Of a stretch of DNA of 64,000 bases, positions 1-55,354 are shown piece by piece. This DNA comes from Halanaerobium praevalens DSM 2228. Its GTDB lineage: Bacteria; Bacillota; Halanaerobiia; Halanaerobiales; Halanaerobiaceae. Each line of letters begins with the position of its first letter. The stretch's first letter is position 1. Under the pieces are notes generated by a model. That model ran no database searches. It was not told the origin of the DNA and saw only the letters and a list, made by a program, of their open reading frames with translations. The translations under genes and the position numbers were made by a program. The DNA lies in assembly GCF_000165465.1 (NCBI RefSeq), contig NC_017455.1, positions 2,046,001 through 2,110,000 of the forward strand. The letters are read 5' to 3'.

Positions 1-1834
1 ATTGAACTCGATAACTTCGGTAATATTTTATTTCTTCTTTTATTTTTTTAGTTTGATTCATATAGTATTTATTTTTAATTTCTTTATATTTCATAGACTC
101 TACAATCAGTATGCGTTCAATACAATATTTAACATTTTCTAAAGACTTTAATTGATTCTCTAAACTCTTTAACTTATTTTGGAATTTAATTATCTCTCCC
201 CTAGCTAATTCATTAGTATATTTAAGCTTTTTTTCCATATCACTTATTAAAGATAACTGCTTCGCAGACAAAACTATAGCCTGATTTAATTCTTGAAATA
301 AATTTTTAATAGAATTCTCCAACTTGTTTTTAGGATAGTCATGTTTAACCGTTTCATATGTATTTTTTAATAATATTTTGGCATTTATATTAATATCTTC
401 CTCACAATATTCTTTAATTGCCTTTTTCATAGTTTTAATTTCTGTATTCTTTATTTTTGCGCCACCTTCTGTAGCATCAATATATTTTCTGTCAGGATGT
501 TTAGCAAAGTAATTATTAAAGAAACTTATCATTGTCATAAATGTTTTACTCGTCAAAACTTTCTCCCCTGTATAACTATCCACTGCAATCAAATTTTCAT
601 TTGAAACTTTCTCATCCTCTTTATATGTTCCAGCAGCATGAGTTTTGCCATTAGCATATGCAAGATCTTGACCAGCTAAAATTATAGGATTTGCACCCAT
701 TTTATAAGCTAAATCAACCATGCTGTGTGCAACTGTTCCCCCTGTTTTAATAGGTGTATATTCACCATTAATTTTTTCTACCCAACCACTAAAATTTCTT
801 TTCATAGTAAAAAAAGATAATTTATCATTCCAGCGTCTTGGCGCCTTATAATAAGTACCTAACTCTAAAAATAAAATTATATCATTTAAATCTTTTACTT
901 TTTTGAAATCAGAAAATTTATCTAAATGACCATCCATTGCTACTACTATATCTGGTTTTATATCATTTTTTATTAATGCTTCTAAAGCAGAATCTACACA
1001 TATTATTAAAGCTTTACCTTCAGCATTTTTAATATCATTGATATTTTTATCTAATGAAGGGCCAGCAGAAACACAAATTGCTGGTATATCTTTAAATTTT
1101 TCAAAAAAAGCATCAGCTTTAGGATTATTAAAAATAAAAAGAAGGTTAGCAATAATGTTATTCCTCCAATGTTTAGCTGATTTAATATTGGTAGCCAATT
1201 CGGTTTTCTTATAATTTATTCCTTCTTTAATTTCTTGATAAATATCTTTATATTCTTCACTAAATAATTTTACAGAAGGACTGTGTTCCAAAAAGTCCAA
1301 ATCCTTTTCAAGATTCAACTCATAATAAGCTATAATAGCATCAAATAATTCTTGTTTATTATCTAAAACAAAGATTATATTATCACTTTTTAATAATTTT
1401 CTTAAATCTATATACTTTAAGGCAATATAAAAAATAGAAAAGTAAGGTTCAATGATAAAAATTTTATCATATTTATTTTCAGCTGCTAATTTATTCAAAT
1501 GATATCCTAAACCAAATCCTAGGGCAAAAACCTGCTGTTTATTTTGAGTTTTAAACTCCTTAATCTGTCGTTCTGACTCCCTGATAGGATTATATGTGCT
1601 GTGAAAATATATATCATTATTCTTATATTTCACACGCATTGTGAGACCATCATTCTTAGCTTTTTCTAAATAAATAGTTAAATCATTTTCTTGATCAATA
1701 ATTTTTTTGATTATCTCTTTATCTTCTTCATCATTTATTTCAAGAAAATTATGTTCTTCATATTTTTTTATGCATTGATATAAATTTGGTTTTTTACTTT
1801 TAATTGCTCGCATATTTTTATTATAATTATCCAA
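1..1834 (-). CDS. Maf-type motility accessory factor (flagellin glycosyltransferase, DUF115/MptE-like), 3' end beyond window
   Basis: The reading frame is open from about 1834 to the window edge, giving roughly 611 residues with no stop, so the C-terminus is missing. The middle of the protein has the DUF115 Rossmann-like motifs: ICVSAGPSLDKN, a CVDSALEAL strand, VVAMDGH, and GGTVAHSMVDLAY followed by AGQDLAYANGKTHA. This family transfers nonulosonic acids such as pseudaminic or legionaminic acid to flagellin in the cytoplasm. The C-terminal part is rich in Lys/Glu helices. I prefer the TTG at 1834 because AGGA lies 10 bases upstream; an in-frame ATG at 1813 is the alternative. The gene follows fliD after a terminator, which fits a role in modifying the neighbouring flagellin. 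The family is secure; the sugar donor is unknown. Confidence 0.85.
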   Translation of the reverse strand, partial: MDNYNKNMRAIKSKKPNLYQCIKKYEEHNFLEINDEEDKEIIKKIIDQENDLTIYLEKAKNDGLTMRVKYKNNDIYFHSTYNPIRESERQIKEFKTQNKQQVFALGFGLGYHLNKLAAENKYDKIFIIEPYFSIFYIALKYIDLRKLLKSDNIIFVLDNKQELFDAIIAYYELNLEKDLDFLEHSPSVKLFSEEYKDIYQEIKEGINYKKTELATNIKSAKHWRNNIIANLLFIFNNPKADAFFEKFKDIPAICVSAGPSLDKNINDIKNAEGKALIICVDSALEALIKNDIKPDIVVAMDGHLDKFSDFKKVKDLNDIILFLELGTYYKAPRRWNDKLSFFTMKRNFSGWVEKINGEYTPIKTGGTVAHSMVDLAYKMGANPIILAGQDLAYANGKTHAAGTYKEDEKVSNENLIAVDSYTGEKVLTSKTFMTMISFFNNYFAKHPDRKYIDATEGGAKIKNTEIKTMKKAIKEYCEEDININAKILLKNTYETVKHDYPKNKLENSIKNLFQELNQAIVLSAKQLSLISDMEKKLKYTNELARGEIIKFQNKLKSLENQLKSLENVKYCIERILIVESMKYKEIKNKYYMNQTKKIKEEIKYYRSYRVQ

Positions 1835-1893
1835 AATAAACACATCCTAAAATTTGTATCATTAATATTACAAATAAATTCATTCAAATTTAT

Positions 1894-1955: not shown

Positions 1956-3386
1956 TTACATCATACTGCTTACAGTAGATCCCCCCATACTCTGGAGTTG
2001 ACTCATCATCCAGCTCTGCTGACTCTGCATTTCTGAAATTGCTTCTTCCATAGCTGAAAACTGATCAACATATCGCTGTCTAGTCATCTCTACTTTTCGC
2101 TGCACATCTTCTATATCATCATTCAATCCATCTATCCTGGTATCATAGAAGTCAAGTCTTCTTGGGATCAAACCAGTATTGGACTACATCAATTGGTCAA
2201 GATAACTATCCATTCTAACAGCCATTCCTTCATAGCCATCAGAATCACTTTCAGCAGTAAAGATAGATATTACTTCTTCTGGAGAATCTTCAAGAGCTTC
2301 AGTAAATTTAGAACTATCAAAGCTCATTACTCCATCTCTGTCAATTTCTATACCTACAGAAGTTAGAGTATTATAATCTCCACTATCTTTAACTTTAGAA
2401 GTTACAAGTTCTCTTAAGCGCATCTGTAAGCGCATAGCAGTACTATCACCCTGAAGAACAGCACTTTTTTCTGTTTCCTCATCATAATCAGTCTTACCAT
2501 CCAGAAAGCTCATTGCACTGTTGTACTGGTCTACAAAAGCCTGAACTGCTTTAGTAGCTTTACCAGTATCTTTAGCTACAGAAACACTAGAAAAAGCAGT
2601 ATCTGTTCCGTCATTAGCAACAGCATCTGGATTGATATTAAAGGTAACACCTTCTACTGCTTCTGAAAAAGTATTGGAAGAACTTGTTATACCTGTAATA
2701 CCATTAATATCTATTTCTGCATTAGAGGCTGATTGAACTTCAATATCATTTGTTATAGCTCCACCATCTAATATCCCTAAAGTTTCTAAGACACCATCAT
2801 TAGTATTACTATCAATCAGATTATTTCCAGCGACTAAAGCATTCTCTTCCCCTGTTTCACTAGTTTCCAAAACTAAATGATTATCTACAATAGAAGCTTT
2901 TACTCCTGCATTTGCATCATTAATTTTATTGCTAATATCTCTTAAGCTGTCTGTGTCATTAATAGTAATAGCTTTTTCATTAATAGTTATTGTATTTTCT
3001 GCTGCAAAATCACCAAGTCCACTAATTGGAGCACTGGTATCATCAAATCTTGTTCCAGCAAGTCGCTGAACCTGAGCTGTACTCTTTACGGTAACAGAAT
3101 AATTAGCTTCATCAGAACTATTACTTGCAGTAGCTGTAACTACATCTTCATTACTACTATTAGCTGTTCTAGAATTATAGGTTGCAGAAAGCTTTAAATC
3201 TGTAATCCTATTTTCTAACTTATCAAGCCTGCTGTTAACATCTCTCCAGGCACCTTTAGTTTGTTCCAGTTCGGATATTTCTTGCTGGTAATTATAGATT
3301 GGACGCTGTTCTAATTGAACCAACTGACTAATTATTGATTCGGTATCCATACCGGTTGCTAATCCACCAAGACTTAAATCACTCAT
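1956..3386 (-). pseudogene. fliD: Flagellar filament cap protein FliD, interrupted by an in-frame amber codon
   Basis: The frame runs ATG (3386) to TAA (1956) and would encode 476 residues, normal for FliD, but codon 401 is TAG (2186-2184). The first 400 residues contain the FliD N-terminus (LGGLATGMDTESIISQLV) and the variable central domains. The next codons, in the same frame, read S-N-T-G and then L-I-P-R-R-L-D-F-Y, continuing into the conserved C-terminal coiled coil with RYVDQFSAMEEAISEMQSQ. FliD caps the filament tip and promotes flagellin assembly; the C-terminal helix is part of the coiled coil that packs in the cap. A 400-residue product would lack it. No frameshift is needed to join the halves, so this is a nonsense codon, a sequencing error, or a suppressed or recoded TAG. 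No fliS follows, although fliS commonly follows fliD. Confidence 0.85.
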
Positions 3387-3402: not shown

Positions 3403-3774
3403 CTAAACCGTCTCATCTATTAAGATTCCTACCATTTCATGAATTCGTGCTTGTAAATCAAGCATTTCTTCTGGAGGTAGTTCTTTAATTACTTCATCTG
3501 TATTTAAATCAACTACCTTAACCATCATCTTTTCTGTATCTTCATGAATCTGGAAGGAAAGTCCTTCTTTTACTTTATCTACTATTTCGTTTACATCTTT
3601 AACTGATTCTCTGACTTCATCTTCAAGTTCTTGCTCGGAGTATTCCTGTTTTTCTCGAAGAGACTCAGGCTTGCGATCACTATTATCATTTCTATTAACT
3701 CTAGTGTTTTGATTATTACTGTTATTGTTATGAATCTGACGGTTGGAAATAGATTCCACACTATCTACTCTCAT
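3403..3774 (-). CDS. flaG: FlaG family flagellar protein
   Basis: This 123-residue protein has a low-complexity Asn/Arg-rich N-terminus (about residues 10-45) and a conserved C-terminal FlaG domain with LSFQIHEDTEKMMVKVVD and the signature EVIKELPPEEML. FlaG is a small protein encoded next to fliD and flagellin that influences filament length. The ATG at 3774 is chosen because AGGGTGG lies eight to nine bases upstream; a GTG 12 bases earlier falls inside that ribosome site. It lies 16 bases before fliD and is probably co-transcribed with it. It ends in TAG, showing that amber is an ordinary stop in this genome. Confidence 0.9.
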   Translation of the reverse strand: MRVDSVESISNRQIHNNNSNNQNTRVNRNDNSDRKPESLREKQEYSEQELEDEVRESVKDVNEIVDKVKEGLSFQIHEDTEKMMVKVVDLNTDEVIKELPPEEMLDLQARIHEMVGILIDETV

Positions 3775-3796
3775 AATAGCTTCCACCCTTTCTTCT

Positions 3797-3865: not shown

Positions 3866-5095
3866 TTAACCGAGTAACTGAAGTACTCCCTGTGGTAACT
3901 GATTAGCTTGAGCCATCATAGCTGTACCAGCCTGACTTAAGATCTGTGACTTAGTAAAGCTCATCATTTCTTTAGCCATATCTACATCAGAGATTCTTGA
4001 TTCAGCAGCTGTTAAGTTTTCTTCAGCTGTGTTTAAGTTATTAATTGTATGATCTAATCTGTTTTGTTTAGAACCCAATTTAGATCTTTCTGCAGAAACT
4101 TTTTGAATAGCTTTATCTAAAGCAGTAATAGAAGCATTTGCTTGTGATTGAGTTTCAACTTTTACTCCAGCCACTCCCAAATTACTAGAACTCATGTTTT
4201 CAATATCTAATGATAAACTTTGAGATGAGTTTGCTCCAATTTGGAAAGTAGCTGTTCCATCAGTTCTCACATCGGCTGCTTTTGTTGTTTCTTGGAAATT
4301 TGAAAGAGCATCAGTTGCAGCAGATTTAACTTCTCCAGAAGCATTTTTGACAGTCATAGTTACTCCATTAACGGCATCTGATACACCAGTATTAGCAGCT
4401 GTAAATGTTAAAGTACCTGAAGCTACTGAAGTAGTTATATCCGCTGATGTTAAGGCAGTAACAGCTGTTCCAGAAGCAATAGTAATACTTTCTGTAACAG
4501 TATCATCACCTTTTACATAAGATAATTCAACAGTATCTCCAGCAGCAATACCTAAGTTATTATCATCAGAATCTTGTAAGCTAACAACAGTAGAACCAGA
4601 GGCAATATTAGAACCTCCGGATTTCAAGCTATCGTTTTCATTAACATTTGCTACAGCAGTATTTACTGCAGTTCCTAAATCACCATTTAATAATTTCTTA
4701 GTATTAAATTCAGTAGTATTTGAAATTCTATCTAATTCATTAACCAATTCATCTACTTCTTTCTGAATTTCTTCTCTATCACCAGCGGTGTTTGTATCAT
4801 TAGCAGCCTGTACAGAAAGTTCTCTCATACGCTGTAGAATTGAGTGCGACTCTTTAAGAGCACCCTCAGCAGTCTGAATCATTGAAATGCCATCCTGAGC
4901 ATTTCTTTGCGCCATTGACAAACCTCTAGTTTGAGACATCATTTTTTCACTAATAGCAAGACCCGCAGCATCATCAGCCGCCTTATTAATTCTTTTACCT
5001 GAAGAAAGTCTCTCCAACGATTTACTTAAACTACTCTGTGTGTTTTTTAGCTGGTTGTATGAATTCAACGCAGCAATGTTTGTGTTAATTCTCAT
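3866..5095 (-). CDS. hag: Flagellin
   Basis: This 409-residue protein is the flagellar filament subunit. The N-terminal D0/D1 region (MRINTNIAALNSYNQL, LSSGKRINKAADDAAGLAIS, MRELSVQAANDTN) and the C-terminal D1/D0 region (SRISDVDMAKEMMSFTKSQI, ending QGVLQLLG) are canonical. The central part (about 150-290) is Ser/Thr/Ala-rich and variable, so it is the surface-exposed domain and the likely site of glycosylation by the Maf enzyme downstream. The start has a strong AAGGAGG site. The gene has its own terminator and a highly structured leader, both consistent with dedicated high-level, post-transcriptionally controlled expression. FliW and CsrA, which often lie between flgL and hag in Firmicutes, are not here. 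Confidence 0.97.
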   Translation of the reverse strand: MRINTNIAALNSYNQLKNTQSSLSKSLERLSSGKRINKAADDAAGLAISEKMMSQTRGLSMAQRNAQDGISMIQTAEGALKESHSILQRMRELSVQAANDTNTAGDREEIQKEVDELVNELDRISNTTEFNTKKLLNGDLGTAVNTAVANVNENDSLKSGGSNIASGSTVVSLQDSDDNNLGIAAGDTVELSYVKGDDTVTESITIASGTAVTALTSADITTSVASGTLTFTAANTGVSDAVNGVTMTVKNASGEVKSAATDALSNFQETTKAADVRTDGTATFQIGANSSQSLSLDIENMSSSNLGVAGVKVETQSQANASITALDKAIQKVSAERSKLGSKQNRLDHTINNLNTAEENLTAAESRISDVDMAKEMMSFTKSQILSQAGTAMMAQANQLPQGVLQLLG

Positions 5096-5281: not shown

Positions 5282-6175
5282 TTATCTAATAAAATCTACT
5301 AATGACTGCTGCATAATTCTTGATCCAGAAGCTAAAGAAGCTCTATAAACCGTTTCTTCCATTTTTAAATTAGTAATTACTTCTGCTAGATCAGCATCTT
5401 CATTTTTAGACTTTAAGCTTTTAATATGAATTTCGTTTGCTTCTAATCTATCAATAACATTTCCAGTCCGCTGAAGTTTTCCACCAACTTCTGCTCTTAA
5501 CTCAGCATATTTATTAATTGAATCATCCATTTCAGATAAGTTATTACCTATATCCTCACCTGAAATACTCTCATCTTCTAGTTGATTATATATTTTATTA
5601 ATGCTCTCTATTTCATCTTTAAAAACCTCATGCCCATTAAGATTAATATCCATCTCTACATTTTCATTTAATCTTCTGGCTACCTTACTTGTATCTCCAT
5701 TATACTTCACATAATTATCAATGCCATTATCAACAACTTCAAAAGGTTTTGCATCTGTTTTTTGGCCTGAGAAAATATAACTATCACCAAGTTTAGCATT
5801 AGAAATATCTATTAGCTCATCTCTTAATTCTTTCATTTCTTTTGCCACCATTTTTCGATCACCAGAAGTCAAAGAATCATTAGCAGTTTTAATTGTTAAT
5901 TCTCTTGCTCTCTGAATAACCTTTGTCCCACTTTTAAGAGCACTCTCAGTTGTGTTTAACCAATTCTCTGCTTGGTTAAGATTCCGCTGAAACTGAGAAT
6001 TCCTATTTAACTGTGATTTGTAATTCATGCTTTCTGAAACTTTAATTGGAGCATCAGAAGGTGTCTGGAATAACTTACCTGAACTCAATTGTTCATTTAA
6101 GTCATTTAAATCTCCCATATTATTTTTAAGATGATCTAACATATTTTGAACCATCATTGAATTTGTAACTCTCAT
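5282..6175 (-). CDS. flgL: Flagellar hook-filament junction protein FlgL (HAP3)
   Basis: This 297-residue flagellin-like junction protein connects the hook to the filament. The N-terminal motif MRVTNSMMVQNMLDHL with LSSGKLFQTPSDAPI and the C-terminal DADLAEVITNLKMEETVYRASLASGSR are typical of FlgL. The length matches the family. The ATG at 6175 is favoured because AGGAG lies nine bases upstream; a TTG three codons earlier lies against the ribosome site. It follows flgK by 19 bases in one transcription unit (flgM-flgN-flgK-flgL). Confidence 0.95.
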   Translation of the reverse strand: MRVTNSMMVQNMLDHLKNNMGDLNDLNEQLSSGKLFQTPSDAPIKVSESMNYKSQLNRNSQFQRNLNQAENWLNTTESALKSGTKVIQRARELTIKTANDSLTSGDRKMVAKEMKELRDELIDISNAKLGDSYIFSGQKTDAKPFEVVDNGIDNYVKYNGDTSKVARRLNENVEMDINLNGHEVFKDEIESINKIYNQLEDESISGEDIGNNLSEMDDSINKYAELRAEVGGKLQRTGNVIDRLEANEIHIKSLKSKNEDADLAEVITNLKMEETVYRASLASGSRIMQQSLVDFIR

Positions 6176-6194
6176 AGCTGTCAACTCCTGTTAT

Positions 6195-7913
6195 TTATAC
6201 TATAGTCATTAATGTTTCTAATAATTGATCAGTTTTATTTATATATTTAGCTGCTGCTGCATATGACTGCTGATATTTAATTAAATTAGCCATTTCTTCA
6301 TCTAAAGAAACACCAGAAACACTTTTGTCAAGTGTATTTAATTGTTTTAAAACAACATCTTGATTGTTTTTCATCTGCTGTGACCTTGATGATTCAGCCC
6401 CAACTGAAGTTACAATAGTTCGAAAATAACCCTCTATTGAAGCTCCTTCTATTACATCTCCACTGTTAAATAAATTAGCAAGTGCATTTGCATTTTCACC
6501 ATTACCAATTGCTTTATTTAAACTAATGTTTATATTACCTTCTTTGTTGATTGTTAATTTAAAATCATCAGTAGTAGAACCTGTAACTGGTGTCTGAATA
6601 CCACCGCTACCATCCACTTCTAAATCAATAGTAGTTCCAGCATCAACTGTCTCAACTCCTGAAGTTGGATATACCTGATTTCCATCAGAATCACTAATTA
6701 CTAAATCTAATTTACCAGGAGTTGCATTTTCTGTAACTTCAACCTGATAATTTCCACTTAAAGAATTGCCAAGAGTATCTAATTCAACAAAAGTATCAAT
6801 ATTTTTATTTCCAGCTGCTATTTTATCAAGTCCATTTTCTAAATCTTTGATAGCCGCTGTCAAATCTAATTGAGAAATAGCGCTTTGATCACTATCTTCA
6901 TCTATTGGTTTAAAGAAATCTCCTCCATCAACACCATTAGCATCATAACCTGCCTTATGTTGACTATTAAACTCTTTCACCATTTCTGCTGCTAACTTAT
7001 CTAAACGACCTCTATAAAAATCAAGTTTATCATCTCTCATATCCATCCAAGCATCAATTTTACCATTAGTTGGTCTAATTTCATTTCCTGTTTGGCTGTG
7101 GATTAATTTATCTTGGTTTTTAGGAATAGTTTTATCCTCAGTAAAACCTTTAGTTTCTAAATCATAAGAATCAGAACCATTAACTAATTGTAAACCATTA
7201 GTGGAAACTACTAAATTTCCCTGTTCATCTTCTCGGCTTTGAACATTAATTAGAGAACTCAATTCTTTATATAAAGCATCTCTTTCATCAAGTAAGTCAT
7301 TCGGATTCTGTCCGCTGCCTTTAACAGAAACAATTTGTTTATTTAAATCAGCCATTTTACCAGTAATATTATTAATATTGGCTGCTGCATTACTCAAATT
7401 ATCATTAATACTTTCCTTATAATCATTCAACTGATTTTCTACACTCTGAAAAGAATCAATTACATTATAAGCATTTTCTCGAACCATATTCCTAGCTGCA
7501 GTATCACTTGGATTATTACTTAAATCCTGAAGTGAATTCCAAAATTGATTAATTGAACTATCAATTCCAGATTCAGAAGGTTCATTTAAAATATATTCTA
7601 CCTTTTCTAAACCTCTCTGCATTTCTTTCCAATAACCTGAAGTTTGAGTCTCTTTAAAAATTTGAGAACTTATAAACTGATCTTTAACTCTTTCAATTTG
7701 AGCAATTTCAACTCCAGTCCCCATTTGACCAGCACTTCCATTATTAGAAAGTCCAGGAGCTGTATAAGGATAAGAAGCCTTATGTACTGCTCGTTGTTTA
7801 TTATATTTTTCGTTATTTGCATTTGCTATATTATGTCCTGTCACATCGAGTGACTTACGCTGAGTTTCTAAAGCTCTTAACCCAACACTCAGGCCACTAA
7901 ATATATTATTCAT
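6195..7913 (-). CDS. flgK: Flagellar hook-associated protein FlgK (HAP1)
   Basis: This 572-residue junction protein sits between the hook and FlgL. The N-terminus has the flagellar rod/hook signature SVGLRALETQRKSLDVTGHN followed by IANANNEKYNKQR. The C-terminus has SGVSLDEEMANLIKYQQSYA and ends in a helix (TDQLLETLMTIV), as in other FlgK proteins. The central region (about 320-480) is variable. A GGGGAGA ribosome site precedes the ATG. The gene is 13 bases downstream of flgN, its likely export chaperone. Confidence 0.96.
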   Translation of the reverse strand: MNNIFSGLSVGLRALETQRKSLDVTGHNIANANNEKYNKQRAVHKASYPYTAPGLSNNGSAGQMGTGVEIAQIERVKDQFISSQIFKETQTSGYWKEMQRGLEKVEYILNEPSESGIDSSINQFWNSLQDLSNNPSDTAARNMVRENAYNVIDSFQSVENQLNDYKESINDNLSNAAANINNITGKMADLNKQIVSVKGSGQNPNDLLDERDALYKELSSLINVQSREDEQGNLVVSTNGLQLVNGSDSYDLETKGFTEDKTIPKNQDKLIHSQTGNEIRPTNGKIDAWMDMRDDKLDFYRGRLDKLAAEMVKEFNSQHKAGYDANGVDGGDFFKPIDEDSDQSAISQLDLTAAIKDLENGLDKIAAGNKNIDTFVELDTLGNSLSGNYQVEVTENATPGKLDLVISDSDGNQVYPTSGVETVDAGTTIDLEVDGSGGIQTPVTGSTTDDFKLTINKEGNINISLNKAIGNGENANALANLFNSGDVIEGASIEGYFRTIVTSVGAESSRSQQMKNNQDVVLKQLNTLDKSVSGVSLDEEMANLIKYQQSYAAAAKYINKTDQLLETLMTIV

Positions 7914-7926
7914 TATCTCCCCACCT

Positions 7927-8421
7927 TTAGCCCTGTTTATTTATAATTCTCGGCTGTTCTTTTTTTAATTTTTTATCTTTAGAATAAGTAGTATCCTGTT
8001 CTTTAATAGTTTTAACAATTGTTTCAAATGAAAGTTGGTTAAGCTCTAAGGCCTGATCCAGCAGTTTTTGGTTTTGCTCATTTAAATTATGAAATTCATC
8101 TGTTAACTCTATTAATTCTTCTCGCAGAGGATTTAAAAGTTCTCCCCACGCTTCTGGTAATTTTTCAATTAGATTACTGTATGAATCTTTTTCTAATTCT
8201 ATTTCAAATTCAGACTTAATCGCTTGAATTTTATTATTTCTTTGCTCATCTTTAGTTTCTATCTCGGCAATTACTTCTCTATCATTTTCTACTATTTCTA
8301 CTAATTTGTCTGTATCGTTATTTACTAAAGCTTCATTTTTTGCTTCTGCAATTTCAAAAAGCTGCTGATAAAGAGCTTTTTCTTCTTTTAATATCTTTAG
8401 TAATTCATCTTTTAAAGCCAT
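7927..8421 (-). CDS. flgN: FlgN-like flagellar export chaperone
   Basis: This 164-residue, strongly charged, almost wholly helical protein matches the FlgN family in size and in its helical pattern (ILKEEKALYQQLFEIAEAKNEAL near the N-terminus, HNLNEQNQKLLDQALELN near the C-terminus). FlgN binds the C-termini of FlgK and FlgL in the cytoplasm and delivers them to the export gate. The position between flgM and flgK is the standard Firmicute order and is the strongest support. The family is variable in sequence. Confidence 0.88.
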   Translation of the reverse strand: MALKDELLKILKEEKALYQQLFEIAEAKNEALVNNDTDKLVEIVENDREVIAEIETKDEQRNNKIQAIKSEFEIELEKDSYSNLIEKLPEAWGELLNPLREELIELTDEFHNLNEQNQKLLDQALELNQLSFETIVKTIKEQDTTYSKDKKLKKEQPRIINKQG

Positions 8422-8424
8422 CTA

Positions 8425-8697
8425 TTACACCTGCTCAACATTATTTATAATTTTTGTAGCTAATGTTTTAGAATCAATTTGATAATTACCAGCTTGAACT
8501 TCTTTTTTTAAAGCTGCTACTTTTTCTTCTCTAATCTGAGGCACCTTTTTAAGTTCAGTTCTAGCAGTCATGATTTCCTTAGCTTTAGCAGAAATTTGAG
8601 TGCTATCATCTTTATTCTTTTTTTGCTCAGTTTGTTTCTGCTGCATCTGTTTATAATATTGATTAATTTTGCCAGCTTGAATATTGTTAATTTTCAT
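8425..8697 (-). CDS. flgM: Anti-sigma-28 factor FlgM
   Basis: This 90-residue protein has a disordered, Gln/Lys-rich N-terminal half beginning MKINNIQAGKI and the conserved FlgM C-terminal region RTELKKVPQIREEKVAALKKE followed by VQAGNYQIDSKTLATKIIN, which contacts sigma-28. FlgM holds sigma-28 inactive until hook completion allows its export. It is the first gene of the flgM-flgN-flgK-flgL unit and has a sigma-28-type promoter about 45 bases upstream, consistent with the usual feedback loop. The ribosome site is AGGAAGGGGG. Confidence 0.93.
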   Translation of the reverse strand: MKINNIQAGKINQYYKQMQQKQTEQKKNKDDSTQISAKAKEIMTARTELKKVPQIREEKVAALKKEVQAGNYQIDSKTLATKIINNVEQV

Positions 8698-54255: not shown

Positions 54256-55354
54256 TCACTTTTCACTTTTATATTTTAAATATGATTCTATAAATTCATC
54301 TAAATAACCATCCATTACTTTATCTACATTTCCTTCTTCAAAATCAGTTCGATGATCTTTAATCATACTATAAGGATGGAAAACATAGGAACGAATCTGA
54401 CTGCCCCAAGCGATCTCTTTATGTTCTCCTCCCAGCTCATCAATTTTTTCTGCCTGAGCTTCTCTTTTTAATTCTAAAAGCTTAGAGCTTAAAATTTTCA
54501 TTGCTGTTTCCTTATTTTTATGCTGTGATCTTTGATTTTGACACTGGACTACAACTCCAGTTGGCTGATGAGTAATCCGCACTGCAGAGTCTGTTTTATT
54601 TACATGCTGGCCCCCAGCTCCACTGGCACGATAAGTATCTATCTTTAAATTGTTTTCATCAATTTCCACTTCTAAATCAGAATCAATTTCGGGCATTACA
54701 TCAACCGAAGCAAAAGAAGTGTGGCGGCGACCAGAAGCATCAAAAGGGGAAATTCGAACTAAACGATGAACCCCTCTTTCTCCTTTTAGATAACCATAAG
54801 CATAATCACCAGAAATCATTAAAGTGACACTTTTAATTCCAGCTTCTTCACCTGGATTAAAATCTAGAGTTTCTAACTGATAATCATTAGCCTCTGCCCA
54901 GCGACTGTACATTCTCAAAAGCATTTGTGCCCAATCTTGAGATTCTGTTCCTCCAGCTCCAGGATGAATTGACAAAATTGCATTATGATCATCATATGGT
55001 TCATTTAGGCGTAATTTTAATTCAAGTTTTTCAATCTCTTTTTCTAATTCAGCTAAAGTATTTTGTAGCTCCTTATTTAAATTTGCATCTTCTTCTGCTG
55101 CTAATTCTAAATAAATTTCTGCTTCTTCAAATTTTTCTTCTAATGACTGAATAACTTTGATTCTTTTTTTAATACGATCAAGCTGTTGTGATTTTTGGCG
55201 AGCATTTTCTTTATCATCCCAAAAACCACCAGCAGCCATTTCAGCTTCTATACTATTTTTAGTTTCAAATAATTTTTCCCGGTCAAAGTAAATCACTCAA
55301 ATCCTGAAAACTGGCCTTTAATTCTGCTAATTTATCGCTAAACTCTTTTGTCAC
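54256..55354 (-). CDS. prfB: Peptide chain release factor 2 with programmed +1 frameshift
   Basis: RF2 releases proteins at UAA and UGA. The gene starts at GTG 55354, nine bases after GGGAG, and frame 1 runs 23 codons to the in-frame TGA (55285-55283) within CTTTGAC, the classic RF2 autoregulatory shift site. After a +1 shift the frame continues as D-R-E-K-L to 54256. The SPF tripeptide is in RISPFDASGRR and the catalytic GGQ in RASGAGGQHVNKTDSAVRI. The internal Shine-Dalgarno-like stimulator is weak here. It begins six bases after secA, whose stop lies in its ribosome site; the secA-prfB order is common in Firmicutes. Confidence 0.96.

Follow-up and report, generated by a model that had tools for sequence, protein, structure and literature searches.

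The flagellar filament is capped by FliD (HAP2; Pfam PF02465/PF07195). In the cap structure from Campylobacter, domain D0 is made of the terminal helices, and mutations there impair motility (PMC7316729). In P. aeruginosa, a laboratory truncation, FliD(1-405), which removes the 69 C-terminal residues, reduced swimming and left visible flagella absent (PMC8533109). A different kind of known system is the recoding of in-frame amber codons as pyrrolysine, described for Acetohalobium and others. Halanaerobium praevalens GSL(T), the type strain, has been reported as non-motile despite its many flagellar genes, whereas other isolates of the species are motile (PMC3156398; also PMC4237134). The genome paper did not explain why this strain, which represents the type species and carries a flagellar gene set, does not swim while other isolates do. 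We analyzed a stretch of 64,000 nucleotides (the window; positions 2046001-2110000 of the 2,309,262-base single-contig genome) in which the fliD frame is interrupted by a single TAG.

An amber codon within the fliD frame

The fliD frame of GSL(T) lies on the minus strand (window 3386-1956) and has, in common with the described caps, homology over its full length, a fit to residues 4-465 of Salmonella FliD (9gnz), and a position adjoining flaG, flagellin, flgL, flgK, flgN and flgM. It differs in having a TAG at codon 401 of 476 (2186-2184), so that no C-terminal leg helices are made. The front part (2184..3386, with its ATG at 3386) encodes a truncated cap protein of 400 amino acids containing a complete FliD_N and positions 1-180 of the 236 positions of FliD_C. 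Directly past the TAG, the frame continues as S-N-T-G-L-I-P, and the untranslated remainder (1956..2183) holds 75 codons for the C-terminal helices and a TAA at 1958-1956. This back part matches FliD_C positions 193-236, and when the frame is read through the TAG, FliD_C is matched from 1 to 236 at 182.6 bits. The FliD of H. salsuginis aligns with all 476 residues, and joining the halves needs no indel. On all of these points (one frame, two halves that keep their family likeness, the TAG at 2186-2184 followed by S-N-T-G, no indel), the original prediction proved accurate.

By our own estimate, a stop would be expected about every 12 codons in random codons at 30% GC; 75 open codons past the TAG, together with the homology, exclude chance as the source of the back part. 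A mechanically called ORF of 71 amino acids, with a TTG start at 2171, lies within the remainder on the same strand. The intact C-terminal helices are absent from the translated FliD, as the ORF ends at residue 400. Modelling with AlphaFold on five sequences gave a poor result (mean pLDDT 47.5), which was left out of the evidence. No relative was found in a scan of viral contigs, and we found no literature naming fliD together with praevalens.

The codon in relatives and the state of the flagellar genes

Of the 101 genomes searched, 75 have fliD, with one copy in GSL(T) and two in H. salsuginis. The closest fliD is that of H. salsuginis (88% identity; contig NZ_FOTI01000004.1), followed by that of another genome of the same family, G013 (86%). 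The context TTG-ATG-TAG-TCC-AAT of GSL(T) reads TTG-ATG-CAG-TCC-AAT in H. salsuginis, H. kushneri and G013, and Gln (CAG or CAA) stands at codon 401 in the other genus members examined; TAG is absent from the site in all aligned genus homologues. The same five-codon context with CAG in the nearest relatives, and Gln across the genus, point to a single C-to-T transition, and this comparison backs a recent break.

With G013 as the outgroup, the 75 codons past the stop carry 9 synonymous changes and 1 non-synonymous change on the GSL(T) branch, while approximately 39 non-synonymous changes would be expected without constraint (our figure, from site counts of 182.8 to 42.2). This excess of synonymous change argues that the fliD break is recent. 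Taken alone, constraint fits a young break, a gene that is still translated, or a wrong base. General decay of the flagellar genes is not indicated, as their ratio of non-synonymous to synonymous counts is 1.03 on this branch and 1.29 on the sister branch (raw counts, uncorrected for multiple hits).

The neighbors of fliD in the window are intact, all on the minus strand: flaG (3403..3786), the flagellin gene (3866..5095), a flgL-like gene of flagellin fold (5282..6184; 95% identical to that of H. salsuginis), flgK (6195..7913), flgN (7927..8421) and flgM (8425..8697). The main flagellar cluster (genome 611,838-643,847) contains flgB, flgC, fliE-fliJ, fliK, flgD, flgE, motA, motB, fliL, fliM, fliY/N and fliO, followed by fliP, fliQ, fliR, flhB, flhA, flhF, flhG, ycgR, fliA, flgF, flgG, flgA, flgH, flgI and flgJ. 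All of these are open, with lengths near those of H. salsuginis and/or G013, and fliS, located elsewhere in the genome, is also open. Among the flagellar genes compared with these two genomes, fliD alone has an internal stop. Where a few further comparisons of flagellar genes showed apparent stops, these traced to antisense query frames, to overlaps between frames or to query ORFs extended at the N terminus, and the GSL(T) genes themselves are open. Downstream of fliD lies a large gene (window 5-1843, minus), with a 55% identical homologue beside fliD in G013; it may be an accessory to motility or act in flagellin glycosylation.

Probable loss of the cap and the non-motile type strain

Taken as a whole, the evidence is very probably best explained by a real and recent single-base nonsense mutation, C to T, that changed Gln401 to amber in the sole fliD of GSL(T). 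The mutation could be of natural origin or a product of culture. Counted against this explanation is the presence of another TAG-interrupted frame approximately 7 kb from fliD. Aligned to Salmonella FliD (9gnz), the 76 C-terminal residues lost by the stop fall on its C-terminal helices, a loss similar in extent to the 69 residues removed from the P. aeruginosa protein. That truncation, however, was engineered in a distant organism, while the one in GSL(T) is natural and known from sequence. With translation stopping at residue 400, FliD would be made without its C-terminal leg helices (D0 and part of D1). Such a protein would probably be unable to cap the growing filament, and without a working cap, flagellin would not be expected to polymerize. 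A missing filament of this kind could account for the description of GSL(T) as non-motile.

An ordinary loss-of-function mutation is probably behind that description, and as a candidate cause it is both sufficient and specific. A defect in regulation or chemotaxis at another locus could also contribute; the comparison covered a subset of the motility genes. A single amber codon is a specific answer to the question of non-motility in GSL(T), and one that is cheaply testable, and fliD in this strain should be annotated as a pseudogene. The case also calls for caution, since gene content is a poor guide to motility and one in-frame stop is a poor guide to recoding.

Recoding, readthrough and other readings of the TAG

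In the original prediction, the break was taken as recent, artefactual or tolerated through suppression, and pyrrolysine, as in Acetohalobium, was raised as a possible recoding. GSL(T) resembles those systems in its in-frame TAG, in being an anaerobic halophile and in belonging to the same order, where PylS is above the cut-off in 3 of 38 genomes. However, all three are in another family and none is a Halanaerobium. In the GSL(T) genome, the best match to PylS (TIGR02367) reaches 25 bits against a cut-off of 178, and that to PylB (TIGR03910) 170 bits against 348; control genomes without pyrrolysine also give matches at such levels. Anticodons were assigned to all 53 tRNA genes and none is CTA, and RF1 (prfA) is intact (360 amino acids, frame open for 360 codons, 82-94% identical to genus members). 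A stop that one comparison placed within prfA lies outside the gene. TAG is also a normal terminator here. In a scan of 524 kb of the strain's own sequence (~23% of the genome), it ends 77 of 475 sampled ORFs (16%), and the open run past it, leaving out runs that pass into another ORF, has a median of 4 codons, the same as past TAA. That flaG ends at TAG, as predicted, was confirmed, and the same holds for 12 flagellar genes of the main operon (fliE, fliI, the PF12611 gene, fliL, fliY/N, fliQ, flhB, flhF, flhG, fliA, flgH and flgI). As a positive control, the recoding scan recovered two cases of UGA recoding, presumably grdA and grdB of glycine reductase, named from known selenocysteine contexts; the frames concerned, with in-frame TGA as selenocysteine, are at L100:12286-12477 and L100:12856-14178. 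With no PylS, no CTA tRNA, a normal RF1 and ordinary termination at TAG, pyrrolysine recoding and efficient general suppression are not supported in GSL(T). Insertion of pyrrolysine at the fliD TAG, a codon that is conserved in no relative and replaced there by Gln, has a vanishingly small probability and is refuted for practical purposes. Of the pyl genes to which the prediction pointed, pylS and pylB were sought in the genome without success, as was an amber suppressor tRNA, and suppression is the part of its proposal that is not supported.

Some full-length FliD could still be made if a real TAG were read through to a useful degree, whether through ribosomal ambiguity, by a near-cognate tRNA or by a suppressor that escaped recognition. 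Both TAG-interrupted frames in the 524 kb have open, homologous downstream parts, as such reading would suggest, but the tRNA set, the normal RF1, the use of TAG as a terminator in the sampled ORFs and operon genes, and the non-motile report (PMC3156398) all speak against it, and we regard it as very unlikely. It is highly improbable that low-level reading by an unrecognised suppressor leaves fliD and the second interrupted gene conditionally expressed and motility switchable. An error in base calling or assembly, with a sense codon in the actual strain, is unlikely. A single assembly stands behind the base call, the remainder looks as fully constrained as in an intact gene, and the stated bound of fewer than 1 error in 100,000 leaves room for some errors genome-wide (PMC3156398). 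That bound, however, belongs to a finished genome with 375x combined 454/Illumina coverage and Illumina polishing (PMC3156398), and by our rough estimate, ~0.02 errors creating a stop would be expected in any flagellar gene. In addition, a lesion is what a non-motile strain should carry, and fliD is the sole broken flagellar gene found. Assembly of FliD from two pieces, the second begun at the internal TTG at 2171, is extremely improbable: the 71-residue frame exists, but no ribosome-binding site precedes its TTG and FliD is a single chain in relatives. Flagellar export signals are N-terminal, and the second piece would be without one. The recent mutation remains the reading that joins CAG in relatives, constraint past the stop, otherwise intact flagellar genes and the report of non-motility; of the three options first proposed, it is the one that stands, with artefact kept as a minor one given the sequencing depth and polishing.

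The second TAG-interrupted frame lies at genome 2040443-2041297 (L112:14443-15297, minus strand), approximately 4.7 kb beyond the left edge of the window, and consists of 164 amino acids, the TAG and 119 amino acids. The one intact homologue found (297 amino acids, 37-39% identity) comes from a distantly related genome within the phylum (L124) and adjoins genes that resemble restriction-modification genes. Conservation is lacking at the residue corresponding to the TAG. Elsewhere, the tRNA-Trp(CCA) and tRNA-Thr(TGT) genes form a tandem duplicated pair (genome 1107825-1108171), and prfB (RF2; window 54256-55296, minus strand, with its upstream part reaching ~55390) carries CTT TGA C, the programmed +1 frameshift site that is usual for this gene.
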